A stretch of 64,000 bases of DNA from a virus, in the IMG/VR virus record IMGVR_UViG_3300008110_000034, positions 62,001 through 126,000 of that record, one strand, 5' to 3'. Under the pieces are notes generated by a model. It did not search any database and was not told the origin of the DNA. It saw only the letters and a program-made list of their open reading frames with translations. The position numbers and the translations under genes were made by a program. This document shows positions 811 through 55,916 of this stretch, piece by piece. Each line of letters starts with the position of its first letter. The first letter of the stretch is position 1.

Positions 811-818
811 TATTTAGT
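811..818 (-). promoter_or_regulatory. Late-promoter-like box (ACTAAATA) abutting the radical SAM start
   Basis: Read on the minus strand the box is ACTAAATA, 6 of 8 matches to the T4 late consensus TATAAATA. It ends exactly 5 nt before ATG 805. With T4 spacing the first transcribed base would be the A of the ATG. By-eye call. Confidence 0.45.
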
Positions 819-43718: not shown

Positions 43719-43726
43719 ACAAGTTG

Positions 43727-44188
43727 ATGTCATGGTATTATCAAAATCAACTTGTTACAGAATTGCCTGAAGACTGTGTGGGATTCGTGTATCTTATCAC
43801 TAATACAGCTACAGGCAGAAAATATATAGGCAAAAAACTGGCAAAATTCAGTAAAACTAGCTATAAAACAGTAACACTTAAAAACGGTACTAAAAAAAAG
43901 AAACGCATTAAGTCAAAAATAGACTCCGATTGGCAAAAATACTATGGCTCAAACGACAGGCTCAATCAAGATGTTACAACATTAGGTCCTGATCGCTTTC
44001 TCAGAGAAATTCTCTTTTACTGTAAAAGCAAGTCAGAATGTAGTTATATTGAAGCAAGAGAACAATTTGATCGTAGAGTTCTCGAAACTGACGACTACTA
44101 TAATGGCATAATCAATGTACGTGTAGGCAGTTCACCATCGCTTAGACAGGCTCTTCTAGAACACAATTTAAAATCATCTAACACTTAA
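43727..44188 (+). CDS. GIY-YIG-like endonuclease domain protein
   Basis: 153 residues from ATG 43727 (a TTG just before is in frame). GFVYLITNTATGRKYIGKK fits the GIY-YIG core (YLI ... KYIG), followed by a basic segment (NGTKKKKRIKSKI) and WQKYYGS. A glutamate in the middle (IEAREQFD) could complete the active site. The family makes DNA cuts and is used by homing endonucleases and phage Seg proteins, but related small proteins also sit beside gp46 in marine T4-like phages without homing. It precedes the structured gene-free region at 44190, which would fit an intron-linked nuclease, although no group I core was found there. Confidence 0.65.
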   Translation: MSWYYQNQLVTELPEDCVGFVYLITNTATGRKYIGKKLAKFSKTSYKTVTLKNGTKKKKRIKSKIDSDWQKYYGSNDRLNQDVTTLGPDRFLREILFYCKSKSECSYIEAREQFDRRVLETDDYYNGIINVRVGSSPSLRQALLEHNLKSSNT

Positions 44189-44665: not shown

Positions 44666-44673
44666 AATAAATA
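44666..44673 (+). promoter_or_regulatory. Late promoter-like box AATAAATA
   Basis: 7 of 8 to T4 TATAAATA. T4 spacing puts the first base at about 44679, only 2 nt before ATG 44681, so the message would be nearly leaderless. There is no Shine-Dalgarno. Confidence 0.45.
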
Positions 44674-44680
44674 AAATATC

Positions 44681-44980
44681 ATGAGAATTTCTGATCTTAT
44701 CGCTGAAGCTGGTCCTACTAGTTATGTACCCGCTAGTCCTGGAAGCCCTATTGTGGTGCCTACTCCACTAACACCACCAGCTACACCTACACCAAGTCCT
44801 AGTGCGCCTGCACCAACACCTTCAGGTCCTGATCCTGATAAAAGAGCAGAACGTCGCAGTAAGGTAGAGCGAGGTAGAAAAATACAGAGAAAAATACAGT
44901 CAGGTAAAAATTATCTAATTGATCTAATTCAAGAACGTAGGAACGAGCCTGCATACAATAAGCTGGGCAGAGCTATTTAA
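44681..44980 (+). CDS. Proline-rich protein, N-terminal part of an apparently frameshifted gene
   Basis: 99 residues: MRISDLIAEAG, a proline/threonine/serine-rich linker (residues ~15-52, PTPLTPPATPTPSPSAPAPT), then a basic helix (KRAERRSKVERGRKIQRKIQ) and YLIDLIQERRNEPAYNKLGR. It ends at TAA 44978-44980. The reading continues sensibly in the frame one base back (LRWLVRAFGLVETAATGGLG) into the ORF at 45067, so the two were probably one protein of about 247 residues. A single missing T in the TTT run at 44976-44978 would restore the frame. No family recognised. Confidence 0.6.
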   Translation: MRISDLIAEAGPTSYVPASPGSPIVVPTPLTPPATPTPSPSAPAPTPSGPDPDKRAERRSKVERGRKIQRKIQSGKNYLIDLIQERRNEPAYNKLGRAI

Positions 44981-46477: not shown

Positions 46478-46485
46478 ATAAATAT
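46478..46485 (+). promoter_or_regulatory. Late promoter box GATAAATA (rightward)
   Basis: Plus-strand GATAAATA, 7 of 8 to T4 TATAAATA. The expected start is near 46491, with AGGAAAA in the leader before ATG 46526. It lies inside the region transcribed from the opposing late box. Confidence 0.6.
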
Positions 46486-46525: not shown

Positions 46526-48877
46526 ATGCCTTTAGACCGCGGCGACATAGACATTATAAGCGAAGCATTTAAACGTGCTATGAAAGATGGCGGGCCGTCA
46601 ATGCCTTCGGCTCCGTCTGTTCCAGGCGGAAAACCTCCTTCGCAGTGGACCAAAACAATAGATGCAGTAGGCGGTGAATTACTAGGATTAGGTAAAGCAG
46701 CTACTGGTATTGCGTCTGAAGGATTTGGCAAAATGCTGCAGGGCGGCGTTAAAGTATCTGATGGATTTAACATTGTCAGTCAAAATCTTATAGCATCAGA
46801 CAGCCACATAGGTAAAGCACTTGGCGGTATAGCAAAAGTGGGCGGTAACATTGTTACTTCGCTTGAAGACACTATAACCACATTAGACGGACTCAGTAAC
46901 ACCGGTGCTTCTTTTGGAAATAGTCTAGTAGAATTAAGAATGGCCAGTGCAGGTACAAGATTACCTCTTAGAGAGTTTAGTGAGGTAATTGCTAAGAACA
47001 GTACAGCATTTGCAAAACTACCAGGTGGTGTTAATGAAGGAGCAAAGTTATTTGCTAAAGCTAGTGAGGAGATGTTTGACAAAAGCGGTCTAATTGATAA
47101 TTTGACCAAAATGGGATATACCTCTACAGATTTGAACAGTATCCTAAGCTACACAATTAGTCAACAAAAACGCTTAAATTTAAATGACGCTGAAGCAACA
47201 GCTAATGCTATAAAACAAGCAGAATCATTAGCGTTTGAGATGGATGCTATTGCCAAGATAACAGGCAAAAGTCGTAAAGAACAAGAAGACGAGTTAAGAA
47301 AACAAAAAGAAAACGGACAAGTAAGAGCAGCAGTTGACCTTGCCTTAAGAAAAGGTGGCGAAGGTGTAAAAACAGCATTTGATTCTATGACCGCAGCCAG
47401 TAAAATAGCAGGACCAGACTTTGCTAAACTACAAGAACAGATGTTTGCTATGGGTCGTCCTTCTAAAGACATGGCAGAAAAGTTCGCTATGGCCGGAGGT
47501 GAAGCTCAAAGATTAATGAAAGCATCAGCTGATGCAGCTAAACGCGGCGACGAAGCTACTGCTAAACGTCTGACACAAGAAGCTGCTATAGCCTACGCTG
47601 CGAATCAAAGATCAGAAGCTATGATGACTCTAGCATCGCAAGGAAATCAGTCTGCTATAGAATCTAATCAGAATGTAGCAGCGTTTTCTGATCGGATGGC
47701 AGCTACTGCTAAAGAACTTAAAGTTGATCTTAACACTCGAGAAGGTCAAAGAAAAGTTTTAGAAAAGATTAATGCAGATACTGCTAAAGAGCAAAAGTCA
47801 AACGGCGACGGTGTAACTAGGACAACAAAAGCTGTAACCAACAATCTAAACGATCTTTCTGCAGGCGTACAAAAAGCAACTTACGGACAATTACAGAATA
47901 ACAAAGTTATTGGCAAAGCATTTGACGATTATTACAAGACTCTAGATGCTGCAAAAGGTAAAGATAATAAAATACGAGCAGAAGCCGAACAAAAAACTGA
48001 TAAAGCACTTACAAACTTGTTAGGTATGATTTCTGATCAAAGACCAGACAGTAAATCAATGATAGACGCAATACAAAAGGGGCTAGCTGAGTCAAAAGAA
48101 CGAGGTACAGGACTAACTGCTGACTCTGCAGAGATGAGAGGCTTACTGGCGTTCTTGAAAAATGATAAAAGTAAAGATGCATTAATGGCTACAATGGAAA
48201 AACAAGCCAAGGCTCAAAATATGGATACTAATAAGTATCTTCAAAACATATTAGCACAAGGTCCTGGTGCAACTAAACAACTTGTTGACGCTGCTCTATC
48301 TGAAAGTAACAGACGGACTGCCGAAGAGCAAAGAAAAGCTCGACAGACTCCTGGAGAAAGTAGATTAGAAGACGTTCAAAATAGACGAAGAAAGAAAGAA
48401 GAAGCGGCTGCTGAGGAAGCAGAAGGTGGCGGAGATACAGTGTCGTCACTTATGAGACTAGCAACTGGCAATCAAGGATTAAACGTTCGAGTATTAAGTA
48501 TGCCAGGAATGCCTCAAAGACAAAACGGATCTGTAGGCAGTGTAGGTAAACTTATAGAAGATTTTGGCTCAGGTACTATGGCAATGCTGCACGGTAAAGA
48601 AACTGTTATGACTGAAAATCAATTGGCTAATCTTGCCAAGGGTATTAGTAAAATGAATATGGCCGAAGTGCCTCAGCCTACCAAAAAGGCAGATACGCCA
48701 TCAGAAACAACTGCAATAAATTCTGGAACTGCTACTCTTAACGACCTCAATACATCACTACAAAGCTTAAATATGCTAATGGCACAGATGCTTTCAAGTA
48801 CTAATAACATGGTCGACAATACTAAGCGACAGATTAAAGCAACCAAAGGACTAAATGGCAACATTTACGCTAGATAA
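46526..48877 (+). CDS. Large helical virion protein, candidate tape measure
   Basis: 783 residues, almost wholly helical and Ala/Lys/Glu-rich, with a hydrophobic Gly-rich segment around residues 45-115 (GGELLGLGKAATGIASEGFG, ALGGIAKVGGNIVTSLEDTI). The C-terminus has GSGTMAMLHGKETVMTENQL, a pattern often found at the ends of tape-measure proteins, followed by a coiled tail. T4 gp29 (590 aa) is the tape measure and lies in the hub cluster; this gene lies beside gp26 and the portal. It could instead be an internal or ejected protein. AGGAAAA precedes the ATG. The start of gp20 is 3 nt downstream. Confidence 0.55.
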   Translation: MPLDRGDIDIISEAFKRAMKDGGPSMPSAPSVPGGKPPSQWTKTIDAVGGELLGLGKAATGIASEGFGKMLQGGVKVSDGFNIVSQNLIASDSHIGKALGGIAKVGGNIVTSLEDTITTLDGLSNTGASFGNSLVELRMASAGTRLPLREFSEVIAKNSTAFAKLPGGVNEGAKLFAKASEEMFDKSGLIDNLTKMGYTSTDLNSILSYTISQQKRLNLNDAEATANAIKQAESLAFEMDAIAKITGKSRKEQEDELRKQKENGQVRAAVDLALRKGGEGVKTAFDSMTAASKIAGPDFAKLQEQMFAMGRPSKDMAEKFAMAGGEAQRLMKASADAAKRGDEATAKRLTQEAAIAYAANQRSEAMMTLASQGNQSAIESNQNVAAFSDRMAATAKELKVDLNTREGQRKVLEKINADTAKEQKSNGDGVTRTTKAVTNNLNDLSAGVQKATYGQLQNNKVIGKAFDDYYKTLDAAKGKDNKIRAEAEQKTDKALTNLLGMISDQRPDSKSMIDAIQKGLAESKERGTGLTADSAEMRGLLAFLKNDKSKDALMATMEKQAKAQNMDTNKYLQNILAQGPGATKQLVDAALSESNRRTAEEQRKARQTPGESRLEDVQNRRRKKEEAAAEEAEGGGDTVSSLMRLATGNQGLNVRVLSMPGMPQRQNGSVGSVGKLIEDFGSGTMAMLHGKETVMTENQLANLAKGISKMNMAEVPQPTKKADTPSETTAINSGTATLNDLNTSLQSLNMLMAQMLSSTNNMVDNTKRQIKATKGLNGNIYAR

Positions 48878-48880
48878 TAT

Positions 48881-50611
48881 ATGAGTTGGAAAAAATACTT
48901 TACACCGGTACCGGCCGGATCTCAACAAGGAACCTACAGCCCTTTGACGCTGTCGTCTAATCGTGCAGGTCCAGCTAAAACTAATTACAGTTCGTACCTT
49001 CCAGATGTATACGTTGGCGCTCCTAATCGTATTGAGCGTTATCTTCAATACGATACTATGGATATGGATTCAGAGGTCAACGCAGCCTTAGATATTCTAG
49101 CAGATTTCTGTAGCCAAAAAGACAAGTCTAATCATACACCGTTTTTTATATATTATAAGAATAAAGCCACTAACACTGAAGTTAGGATTCTAAAAGAATA
49201 CCTGCAACACTGGTCAAAAATGCAAAAATTTGAGACTAGAATTTTTAGAATCATGCGAAATCTTTTTAAATTTGGAGATGTATTCTTTGTTAGAGATCCA
49301 GAAGACGGCAAATGGCACTATGTAGATGCTGGGAAAGTTGTTAAAGTTATAGTCAACGAAAGCGAAGGCAAAAAGCCCGAGCAGTATGTAGTTAAAGATT
49401 TGAATATTAATTTTCAAAACTTAGTTACAACACAAATAAGTCCAAATACAACTAGTACTAACAATAGAGGAACAGCATACGTAGCAGGTGGCGCAGCCGT
49501 TCGAGGCATGGTAGGATCTTACCCACAAAGCTCAGGTACACGATTTTTTAATAACGACAACGAATTTGCAATTGATGCAACACATGTAGTGCATCTAAGT
49601 CTTAGTGAAGGTTTAGACAATAACTTTCCTTTTGGTAATAGTTTATTAGAAAATATTTTTAAAGTTTATAAACAAAAAGAATTACTTGAAGACGCTATTA
49701 TTATCTATCGAGTGCAACGTGCTCCAGAGCGTAGAGTTTTTTATATTGATGTAGGTAACATGCCCAGTCACTTGGCCATGGGATTTGTTGAAAGAGTAAA
49801 GAACGAAATCCATCAACGAAGAATTCCTAGTCAAACTGGCGGCGGCACAAATGTTGTAGACTCGGCATATAATCCATTAAGCATCAATGAAGACTTCTTT
49901 TTCCCTCAGACTGCTGAAGGTAGAGGTTCAAAAGTAGAAACGTTACCTGGCGGCACTAACTTGGGCGAAATTGACGATTTAAAATATTTTACTAATAAAC
50001 TATTCCGCGGCTTACGTATTCCAAGTAGCTATCTACCTACTGGTGCAGACGACAGTCAAGCACAGTATAATGATGGTCGTGTGGGAACTGCTTACATACA
50101 GGAACTTAGATTTAATAGATATTGCGAACGACTACAGAGTCTAGTTCAAGATATGTTTGATCAAGAATTTAAACGATACCTACATAAGAGAGGTGTTAAT
50201 ATTGATTCTGCATTATTTGAATTAAAGTTTCAGCCTCCACAAAATTTTGCCAGCTATCGACAAGCAGAATTGGATACACAACGAATTAGTACATTTGCTC
50301 AGTTATCGCAAGTACCGTTTATGTCAAAACGTTTTGCATTAAAACGATTCTTAGGAATGAACGAAGAAGAAATTGCAGAAAACGAACGTTTATGGGCTGA
50401 AGAAAACGGTAAAGCTAATCCTATACCTACTGACAGTTCGGCAGAAATGCGGGGCGCAGGAGTAAGTCAAGCCGGCCTAAGCGCAGACATGGGCGCACTA
50501 GCAGATCAACCGGTTCCACCTGAAATGGCACCTGCAGAAGCAACACCAGCAGCAGCAGTTCCGGGCGCTGGTGCAGCACCAGCAGCACCAGCAGCTCCAC
50601 CGGCAGCATAA
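48881..50611 (+). CDS. gp20: Portal vertex protein gp20
   Basis: 576 residues, near T4 gp20 (524). Marker blocks are DMDSEVNAALDILADFCSQK, FKFGDVFFVRD, VVHLSLSEGLDNNFPFGNSL, LLEDAIIIYRVQRAPERRVF, and LPGGTNLGEIDDLKYFTNKL with LRIPSSYL. The C-terminus has an Ala/Pro-rich tail (~525-576) absent from T4. It forms the dodecameric DNA gate, the docking site of terminase and neck. No clear Shine-Dalgarno; it starts 3 nt after the preceding stop. Confidence 0.95.
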   Translation: MSWKKYFTPVPAGSQQGTYSPLTLSSNRAGPAKTNYSSYLPDVYVGAPNRIERYLQYDTMDMDSEVNAALDILADFCSQKDKSNHTPFFIYYKNKATNTEVRILKEYLQHWSKMQKFETRIFRIMRNLFKFGDVFFVRDPEDGKWHYVDAGKVVKVIVNESEGKKPEQYVVKDLNINFQNLVTTQISPNTTSTNNRGTAYVAGGAAVRGMVGSYPQSSGTRFFNNDNEFAIDATHVVHLSLSEGLDNNFPFGNSLLENIFKVYKQKELLEDAIIIYRVQRAPERRVFYIDVGNMPSHLAMGFVERVKNEIHQRRIPSQTGGGTNVVDSAYNPLSINEDFFFPQTAEGRGSKVETLPGGTNLGEIDDLKYFTNKLFRGLRIPSSYLPTGADDSQAQYNDGRVGTAYIQELRFNRYCERLQSLVQDMFDQEFKRYLHKRGVNIDSALFELKFQPPQNFASYRQAELDTQRISTFAQLSQVPFMSKRFALKRFLGMNEEEIAENERLWAEENGKANPIPTDSSAEMRGAGVSQAGLSADMGALADQPVPPEMAPAEATPAAAVPGAGAAPAAPAAPPAA

Positions 50612-50614
50612 ATA
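50607..50614 (+). promoter_or_regulatory. Late promoter box CATAAATA abutting the 50620 gene
   Basis: CATAAATA, 7 of 8 to T4 TATAAATA, overlaps the gp20 stop and ends exactly 5 nt before ATG 50620. With T4 spacing the first base of the RNA is the A of the ATG. No Shine-Dalgarno precedes this start. Confidence 0.55.
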
Positions 50615-50619
50615 TTATT

Positions 50620-50859
50620 ATGATATTGCGAGAATTATTTTATATTGATCCAGACATCAAAGGTCTTGGTAATGACATGAGATATGATCCTTCTAAGGAT
50701 GAAAGCGTACTCTCGCGACAAGACACAAGAAAAACAAGATTAACACTAAAACAAATTAATGAATTAAGAAAAAGCTCTGAACAGCATATATTAGAACAGG
50801 AAGAAGAGCTTGAATTCATTACTGACATGTACAAAGTTCCTGAAGCACCACCTGCATAA
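50620..50859 (+). CDS. Small protein between portal and core genes, 79 aa
   Basis: Sequence MILRELFYIDPDIKGLGNDM, then a charged helical region (TRKTRLTLKQINELRKSSEQ, LEQEEELEFITDMYKV) likely to form a coiled coil. From memory a small gene of this kind follows gp20 in marine T4-like phages, perhaps in the position of the T4 head genes 67/68, but I do not see proof of a core role. Start set by the ATG directly downstream of the late box. Confidence 0.6.
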   Translation: MILRELFYIDPDIKGLGNDMRYDPSKDESVLSRQDTRKTRLTLKQINELRKSSEQHILEQEEELEFITDMYKVPEAPPA

Positions 50860-54163: not shown

Positions 54164-55330
54164 ATGTCAGAACTACTACACGGCCGTTGGAATGAAACAA
54201 GAGAGGCCCTTTTAGAAGGTCTTTCCGGCACTCGTAGATCAACAATGTCAATCACTCTTGAGAATACTCGTAAGTATTTGATGGAGAGTCCTTCTGCTGG
54301 TGCTACTTCTGCTGGAAACGTTGCAACACTGAATCGCGTTATTCTACCGGTTATCCGCCGAGTAATGCCAACAGTTATTGCTAACGAACTAGTTGGTGTA
54401 CAACCAATGACTGGACCTGTTGGTCAAATTCACACTTTACGTGTTCGCTATGCTACAACTTCAGCAGGTGCTGGTGTTGTTGCTGGTGAAGAAGCATTAA
54501 GCCCATTCAAGATTGCTGAAGCATATTCCGGTAACGAAAGTACCGGTAAAGGTGCATCAACAGCAACTCTAGAAGGTGCTGCTGGAAACAAACTAAGCAT
54601 CCAAATCCTAAAGCAAACTGTCGAGGCAAAAACTCGTAAGTTAAGTGCTCGTTGGACTTTTGAAGCTGCTCAAGATGCACAAGCTCAACAAGGCATTGAC
54701 ATCGAAGCAGAAATCATGGCTGCTTTAGCACAAGAAATTACCGCTGAAATCGATCAAGAAGTTCTAGCTAGTCTAACAACTCTTGCTGGTTCAGCTGTTG
54801 AAACATACAACCAAGCTGCTGTATCAGGTACAGCTACATTCGTTGGTGACGAACACGCTGCATTAGCTGTTCAAATCAATCGTGTTGCTAACTTGATCGC
54901 TCAGCGTACACGTCGCGGTGCTGGTAACTGGGCAGTTGTTAGCCCAACAGCATTAACAATCCTTCAAAGTGCTACAACTTCTGCGTTCGCAAGAACAACA
55001 GAAGGTACATTCGAAGCACCTACAAACACTAAGTTTGTTGGTACATTGAACAGTGCAATGAAGATCTATGTAAACAGCTATGCAACTACTGATAACGTTC
55101 TAGTTGGTTACAAAGGTACAAGCGAAAGTGATGCTGCTGCATTCTACTGCCCATATATTCCATTAATGAGCAGTGGTGTTGTTCTAGATCCAGCAACATT
55201 CGAACCAGTCGTAAGCTTTATGACTCGTTATGGATATGTTGAATTAAGCAACACAGCAAGTTCTTTAGGTAACGCAGCTGACTACCTAGGTCTTGTTAAC
55301 ATCACTACAGCTAACGTTAAGTTTAGCTAA
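54164..55330 (+). CDS. gp23: Major capsid protein gp23
   Basis: 388 residues, shorter than T4 gp23 (521) and the lengths I recall for cyanophages. Family blocks: TLENTRKYLMES near residue 31, LNRVILPVIRRVMPTVIANE, VGVQPMTGPVGQIHTLRVRY, LSARWTFEAAQDAQAQQGID, INRVANLIAQRTRRGAGNW and NVLVGYKGTSESDAAAFYCP. LME near residue 39 could be a gp21 cleavage site (T4 cuts after LxE/IxE). The shortness is in the middle or C-terminal part; the T4 insertion domain is probably absent. AAGGAGA precedes the ATG, and tandem terminators follow. Confidence 0.95.
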   Translation: MSELLHGRWNETREALLEGLSGTRRSTMSITLENTRKYLMESPSAGATSAGNVATLNRVILPVIRRVMPTVIANELVGVQPMTGPVGQIHTLRVRYATTSAGAGVVAGEEALSPFKIAEAYSGNESTGKGASTATLEGAAGNKLSIQILKQTVEAKTRKLSARWTFEAAQDAQAQQGIDIEAEIMAALAQEITAEIDQEVLASLTTLAGSAVETYNQAAVSGTATFVGDEHAALAVQINRVANLIAQRTRRGAGNWAVVSPTALTILQSATTSAFARTTEGTFEAPTNTKFVGTLNSAMKIYVNSYATTDNVLVGYKGTSESDAAAFYCPYIPLMSSGVVLDPATFEPVVSFMTRYGYVELSNTASSLGNAADYLGLVNITTANVKFS

Positions 55331-55333
55331 TCT

Positions 55334-55389
55334 AAAAACTTTACAAAAGTTTTTAATTTTAAAAAGGGCTCTTCGGAGTCCTTTTTTTT
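55334..55389 (+). terminator. Tandem terminators after gp23
   Basis: The first stem is AAAAACTTT/AAAGTTTTT at 55334-55354 (9 bp, loop ACA). The second, at 55361-55389, is AAAGGGCTC-TTCG-GAGTCCTTT with a UUCG tetraloop, followed by an eight-base T run. A classic intrinsic terminator ending the head operon. Confidence 0.88.
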
Positions 55390-55390
55390 A

Positions 55391-55398
55391 GGTAAATA
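55391..55398 (+). promoter_or_regulatory. Late promoter-like box GGTAAATA abutting the 55404 gene
   Basis: 6 of 8 to T4 TATAAATA. It ends 5 nt before ATG 55404, so the RNA should start at the ATG itself. No Shine-Dalgarno. Directly downstream of the tandem terminators, where a new promoter is expected. Confidence 0.5.
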
Positions 55399-55403
55399 TT
55401 TTT

Positions 55404-55916
55404 ATGCTTACTGAAATTAGAAAAACCCCACAAACTATTTTTCAAATGCCAACCGGCGACGACAATGTAAATTGGACAAACTTAGATGCAATAAAAAGAC
55501 CTGATGGGTTTGCACTTACTGATAAAGAATTATACTATATTTCTGGAGTCACTAATGTAAGTTTTAGAAATTCTGCAGCACAAGTCTGGGCAACAGAATT
55601 TAATTTTGAAAATTTAGGTACTATTTTAGGAATAGAAGTTCAACTAGTTACACAACGTCTTTCAAGAATACAAGATAAACTTATATCTTTATGTTATCAA
55701 GATCAAATCATAGAGGAAAACAAGTTTAATCTTAAAGCTGAAAATGATCAAACTTACGGATCAAATAACGATCTATGGGGCAGAGTTTGGACAGCCGAAG
55801 AAATCCAAGATCCATCGTTTGGTGTAGTAATAGAACTACAACCTCATTTATTTTACCCCCACAGTGAGCTAGGTCTAATAGATTTTATAGCTATTAAAAT
55901 ATACCACGATTCGTAG
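55404..55916 (+). CDS. Hypothetical virion-associated protein, 170 aa
   Basis: Sequence starts MLTEIRKTPQTIFQMPTGDD; later WATEFNFENLGTILGIEVQL and VVIELQPHLFYPHSELGLID suggest an all-beta protein of structural type (jelly-roll-like appearance). First gene of the right-hand fibre block. No enzymatic motif. Probably a decoration or fibre-attachment protein; that is inference from place. Confidence 0.6.
   Translation: MLTEIRKTPQTIFQMPTGDDNVNWTNLDAIKRPDGFALTDKELYYISGVTNVSFRNSAAQVWATEFNFENLGTILGIEVQLVTQRLSRIQDKLISLCYQDQIIEENKFNLKAENDQTYGSNNDLWGRVWTAEEIQDPSFGVVIELQPHLFYPHSELGLIDFIAIKIYHDS

Follow-up and report, generated by a model that had tools for sequence, protein, structure and literature searches.

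Leaderless phage messages are already known, the classic one being that of lambda cI, a single repressor gene whose leaderless mRNA is transcribed from a host sigma-70 promoter. In the Thermus phage phiYS40, many middle and late mRNAs are leaderless (PMC3594737). Among bacterial 'TA-led' genes, the leaderless state is conventionally recognised by a -10-like box lying about 10 bp ahead of the start codon (PMC3160421), and leader lengths in Lactococcus cremoris are bimodal, with none of 4–14 nt (PMC10986495). A search of the open-access literature found no report of late genes without leaders in T4-like phages. The late box of T4 comprises 8 bp beginning at -13, and late transcription is described as starting about one helical turn from the box (PMC2988020). 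The same motif as that reported here precedes structural genes in the cyanophages and in CBB/GAP32 (NATAAATA or ATAAATA); a leaderless layout is not mentioned in the passages describing the motif (PMC2984593, PMC5259590).

The phage described here resembles T4, whose late promoters (TATAAATA) are served by gp55, gp33 and gp45, in the sequence of its late box and in possessing a gp55-type sigma factor. It differs in the position of the box: at a set of genes here only 2–7 nt separate it from the ATG, whereas no such box in the T4 regions examined came closer than 12 nt. The other precedents differ as well: phiYS40 is another phage on another host, and most of its middle and late messages are leaderless, whereas a subset of genes behind a T4-type late box is concerned here; the TA-led bacterial genes, those of L. 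cremoris included, have host promoters rather than a phage late-sigma box; and lambda cI is one repressor gene, while the leaderless candidates here are several virion genes.

Results

The window, a stretch of 64,000 nt, belongs to an IMG/VR phage record of 181 kb, which was read in stretches with G000:60001-62000 left out. Its relevant features are collected in Table 1. The first-pass annotation had placed a late box 5 nt before the ATG of the gene that follows gp20, reusing the gp20 stop region and lacking a ribosome site, and had expected a leaderless mRNA. The box was found in that position; its sequence, CATAAATA, is of the T4 late promoter type (TATAAATA or a close variant), and the gp20 stop codon lies within it. 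The 20 nt upstream of the 79-aa gene consist of Ala/Pro-rich gp20 codons, and a Shine-Dalgarno (SD) sequence is absent. By tblastn the portal ORF was closest to those of jumbo phages, such as Phosso (53.5% identity) and Atu_ph07 (49.5%); the phage is not T4.

Table 1. Positions, within the window, of the portal junction and of the other promoters, genes and terminator discussed in the text
Feature	Position	Strand	Remarks
gp55-type late sigma factor ORF, 275 aa	39869..40696	+	T4 gp55 query, E = 5e-7
Late box ATAAATA	44667..44673	+	7 nt before ATG 44681 (99 aa); near-leaderless candidate
Upstream late box	46478..46484	+	41-nt ordinary leader with AGGAAAA, then ORF 46526-48877
gp20-type portal protein ORF, 576 aa	48881..50611	+	TAA stop (50609-50611) inside late box
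T4-type late promoter box CATAAATA	50607..50614	+	-13 to -6 if +1 is the A of ATG
5-nt spacer TTATT	50615..50619	+	Between CATAAATA and ATG 50620
79-aa late gene, phrog_13986 (family without assigned function)	50620..50859	+	ATG is the predicted transcription start
Intrinsic terminator	55362..55389	+	10-bp hairpin (-12.4 kcal/mol), then T run; adjoins variant late box
Variant late box GTAAATA	55392..55398	+	Spacer TTTTT, ATG 55404; 170-aa ORF 55404-55916; second leaderless candidate
Variant late box CTAAATA	811..817	-	Spacer TTTCC, ATG at 805; third leaderless candidate

The late sigma factor ORF matched two PHROG families (phrog_12791, E = 4e-77; phrog_234, E = 1e-24). A T4 gp45 query produced no match in the record, although this search was run without a positive control and shows little. 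Given an 8-bp box beginning at -13, a 5-nt gap would place +1 on the A of the ATG, while the 4-nt gap seen in a third of relatives would shift the start by one base or place it 1–3 nt upstream. Transcription starts generally prefer a pyrimidine at -1 and a purine at +1. A pyrimidine directly preceded the ATG in 75 of 77 genes with a short gap but in only 47 of 87 with a long one (Fisher, p = 1e-11), which fits a transcription start at the ATG.

The junction was compared among 80 IMG/VR loci with a homologue of the 79-aa gene, out of 343 relatives reported, and 50 distinct junctions remained after duplicates were removed. The gap between box and ATG was 5 nt in 30 of these, 4 nt in 18, and 6 nt and 7 nt in one each. 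All 50 carried NTAAATA (ATAAATA in 48, CTAAATA in two), the search pattern having demanded TAAATA; when the starts at the 80 loci were viewed separately and unfiltered, the same layout was seen almost throughout. The spacer varied in sequence while keeping a length of 4–5 nt in 48 of 50 junctions, and its final base was T or C in 48 of 50. The start codon was ATG in the window and in the relatives listed, in which the beginning of the 79-aa protein, MILREL, was also kept, with synonymous changes.

The same junctions bear on the view that a polycistronic gp20 message is the sole source of the 79-aa protein, made by ribosomes that terminate at the TAA and restart 8 nt past it, the box being a by-product of the stop codon or a promoter for genes further downstream. 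This would suit the distance from stop to ATG, which was 7–8 nt in 44 of 50 junctions. However, three loci (L020, L046 and L075) had the gp20 stop displaced, at distances of 11, 12 or 16 nt upstream of the ATG, and still kept a gap of 5 nt between box and ATG. Moreover, the final gp20 codon was GCA in 26 of 26 cases where it encoded Ala and GTA in 13 of 13 where it encoded Val, although A occupied the wobble position of only 56% of Ala and 48% of Val codons elsewhere in the gp20 tail. The probability of such A-ending final codons by chance was about 1.5e-11 if the sequences were independent; the public contigs are mutually related, so that counts are not independent events and P-values throughout overstate the evidence. 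The wobble bias implies that the box has been selected apart from coding and, with the displaced stops, argues that box and ATG, rather than stop and ATG, are held together. The pyrimidine at -1 would also be left unexplained by reinitiation, and equal spacing occurs at unrelated genes with terminators directly upstream (see below). Reinitiation as the sole source of the protein was thus considered unlikely.

This does not apply to a gp20 message as an additional source. A terminator was looked for just 5' of ATG 50620 and not found, and the late box at 46478, with its ordinary leader, probably begins a polycistronic message running through gp20 into the 79-aa gene. Both facts favour the reinitiation view; they also make a read-through message likely for the 79-aa gene, and part of its translation could come from ribosomes that reinitiate beyond the gp20 stop.

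The absence of a ribosome site extended to the relatives. Duplex energies with the E. coli anti-SD sequence, which may not be that of the host, had a median of +0.5 kcal/mol at the gp20 junction among 44 non-redundant relatives, only two of which fell below -4.5 kcal/mol; for longer-leader genes behind the same box, the median was -5.9, and 67% of long-gap genes fell below -4.5 kcal/mol. Every one of 61 box-N5-NTG cases had ATG, in a sample drawn largely from loci of genes already known to start with ATG.

Since the window is AT-rich, it was considered whether base composition might simply make ATAAATA common near ATG. Late boxes with one mismatch were not more frequent in the window than expected by chance; a single case is therefore weak, and the motif by itself is no evidence. 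Within the 181-kb record, the permuted word AATTAAA came close, with four occurrences at gaps of 4–6 nt against five for ATAAATA. In a reverse-pattern control, short gaps were not clearly enriched among whole isolate records W01-W07 (76 versus 69). In environmental records, gaps of 2–8 nt were enriched (31 versus 18, with 26 of the 31 at 4–5 nt), these records having been chosen for holding the gp20 junction, which itself gives about half of the matches.

In the 181-kb record, ATAAATA lay 2–7 nt from the ATG or else 16 nt and more away, the latter usually with an SD sequence, and never at 8–15 nt; a similar empty zone, at 9–17 nt, was seen among related loci. TAAATA stood exactly 5 nt before the ATG of ORFs of at least 60 aa eight times in the record, where the other gaps averaged 1.3 (Poisson, p = 6e-5 before multiple-test correction). 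When about 65,000 word-gap pairs were ordered, this combination ranked 13th, in the company of real SD words and of some words resembling repeats. In T4 (90 kb, including a large part of the late region) and in Syn9 (95 kb), ORFs of at least 60 aa never had ATAAATA within 9 nt of their ATG; in Syn9 the variant boxes near an ATG were one TTAAATA-N2-ATG and one GTAAATA-N9-ATG. These T4 and Syn9 regions contain such boxes, yet without the short gap, and a gap of 4–5 nt is kept in nearly all distinct relatives. The comparative evidence across relatives and gene families removes chance as an explanation, which was judged highly improbable. The 90 kb examined are consistent with an earlier remark that T4 is not described as having this layout, with the proviso that the phage is not itself T4.

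The short gap was also found at other genes. The first-pass annotation had noted identical spacing at 805 and 55404 and had suggested a class of leaderless late genes on the basis of three cases. Both further genes do have a 5-nt gap, but behind variant boxes, and the class, which is supported across families, extends beyond three members, its spacing being 4–5 nt and not always 5. In the tail tube family (phrog_13438, phrog_4542), the gap was 5 nt in 20 of 24 non-redundant box-bearing relatives, down to 31% identity, and part of the wider family (29 loci) was without the short-gap layout. A gap of 4–5 nt was present in 9 of 9 cases of the 762-aa head protein, and the terminase large subunit of the 181-kb record had TTAAATA-N5-ATG. 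For the 99-aa gene at 44681, the alignable 5' regions come from near-identical contigs.

At several short-gap genes, intrinsic terminator hairpins ended 18–23 nt before the ATG, making supply by an upstream message unlikely. These were 55404 in the window, where the terminator follows ORF 54164-55330 (gp23-type by gene order), the terminase (L095:1053), L096:14364, and the tail tube gene at L140, L144, L157, L163 and L177.

A real promoter might still serve downstream genes only, or start transcription a few nt inside the ORF, so that its proximity to the 79-aa start is incidental. Further late genes do lie downstream, and T4 late starts have been placed only at about one helical turn from the box. 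Nevertheless, spacing was kept within 1–2 nt across several gene families, and the N-terminus of the 79-aa protein was conserved at the protein level; incidental proximity was regarded as very unlikely. Like TA-led genes, the short-gap genes carry a promoter element at a fixed spacing of about 10 bp from the start.

Homologues of the 79-aa gene in Phosso, Atu_ph07, RaK2, 121Q, XaC1 and Vibrio 2.275 were mostly SD-led when inspected by eye (Callisto was ambiguous). In RaK2 (L097, 2489), AATAAATA precedes a leader of about 28 nt that contains AGGA; by its sequence, this is the same promoter type in SD-led form. The 268-aa gene had a 4-nt gap in the clade of the present phage (L096:6327), while ATAAATA in its relatives (L178-L195) stood before a longer leader, in several cases one with AAGG-like signals; judged from these layouts, the family seems to have switched from SD-led to leaderless.

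Some further genes were recorded in passing. A 113-aa ORF, HNH-like by eye, showed ATAAATA-N5-ATG on the minus strand (L094:12243), and a Dps-like gene of 144 aa (L092:6322), whose best matches were about 40–45% identical and came from many bacterial groups, mainly Proteobacteria, a spread that pointed to no single host, began 7 nt downstream of an ATAAATA box. Near gp20, the products of several genes with short-gap boxes start with M[KR][IV]xx[IL]I..E (L052:122, L055:357, L066:103, L071:346, L075:128 and 44681 in the window); these starts presumably resemble T4 capsid-targeting sequences with a gp21-type cleavage site. A 154-aa ORF in the window (43724-44185) matched a PHROG family annotated as NAD synthetase; its matches to homing endonuclease families were weaker.

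Discussion

The observations are best explained by a class of leaderless or near-leaderless late mRNAs, with the 79-aa gene probably also carried on a gp20 read-through message (probability about 0.82). Under this explanation, the box would be a late promoter recognised by the phage gp55-type sigma on host RNA polymerase, and its distance from the gene would set the transcription start on, or within 1–2 bases of, the A of the AUG. The late mRNA of the 79-aa gene would then have neither leader nor SD sequence, and ribosomes would start at the 5'-terminal AUG; gp20 read-through probably provides a second message. The tail tube, the 762-aa head protein and the terminase large subunit would belong to the same class. 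Start site, leaderless initiation and late timing are predicted from sequence layout and the position of the box; the leaderless late mRNA first proposed for this gene is supported by conserved spacing, SD absence, bimodal gaps and the pyrimidine before the ATG.

A broader interpretation is offered tentatively, at somewhat less than even odds. In a large and mostly uncultured T4-type clade, core virion genes (the portal-adjacent head gene, tail tube, head protein and terminase) may have exchanged SD-led for leaderless expression as the late promoter was drawn close to their start codons. Late in infection, their messages might thereby gain an advantage or a timing of their own, for instance where the phage alters the balance of initiation factors.

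If the leaderless class is real, late virion proteins of an abundant phage group would be made without the Shine-Dalgarno step. Transcription start sites would be predictable from sequence, and start-codon annotation in uncultured phages would improve. Leaderless and leader-bearing genes behind one promoter type would offer a natural comparison, and the 268-aa family, with its short gap in one clade and a leader in relatives, suggests that such switches may be traceable in evolution.
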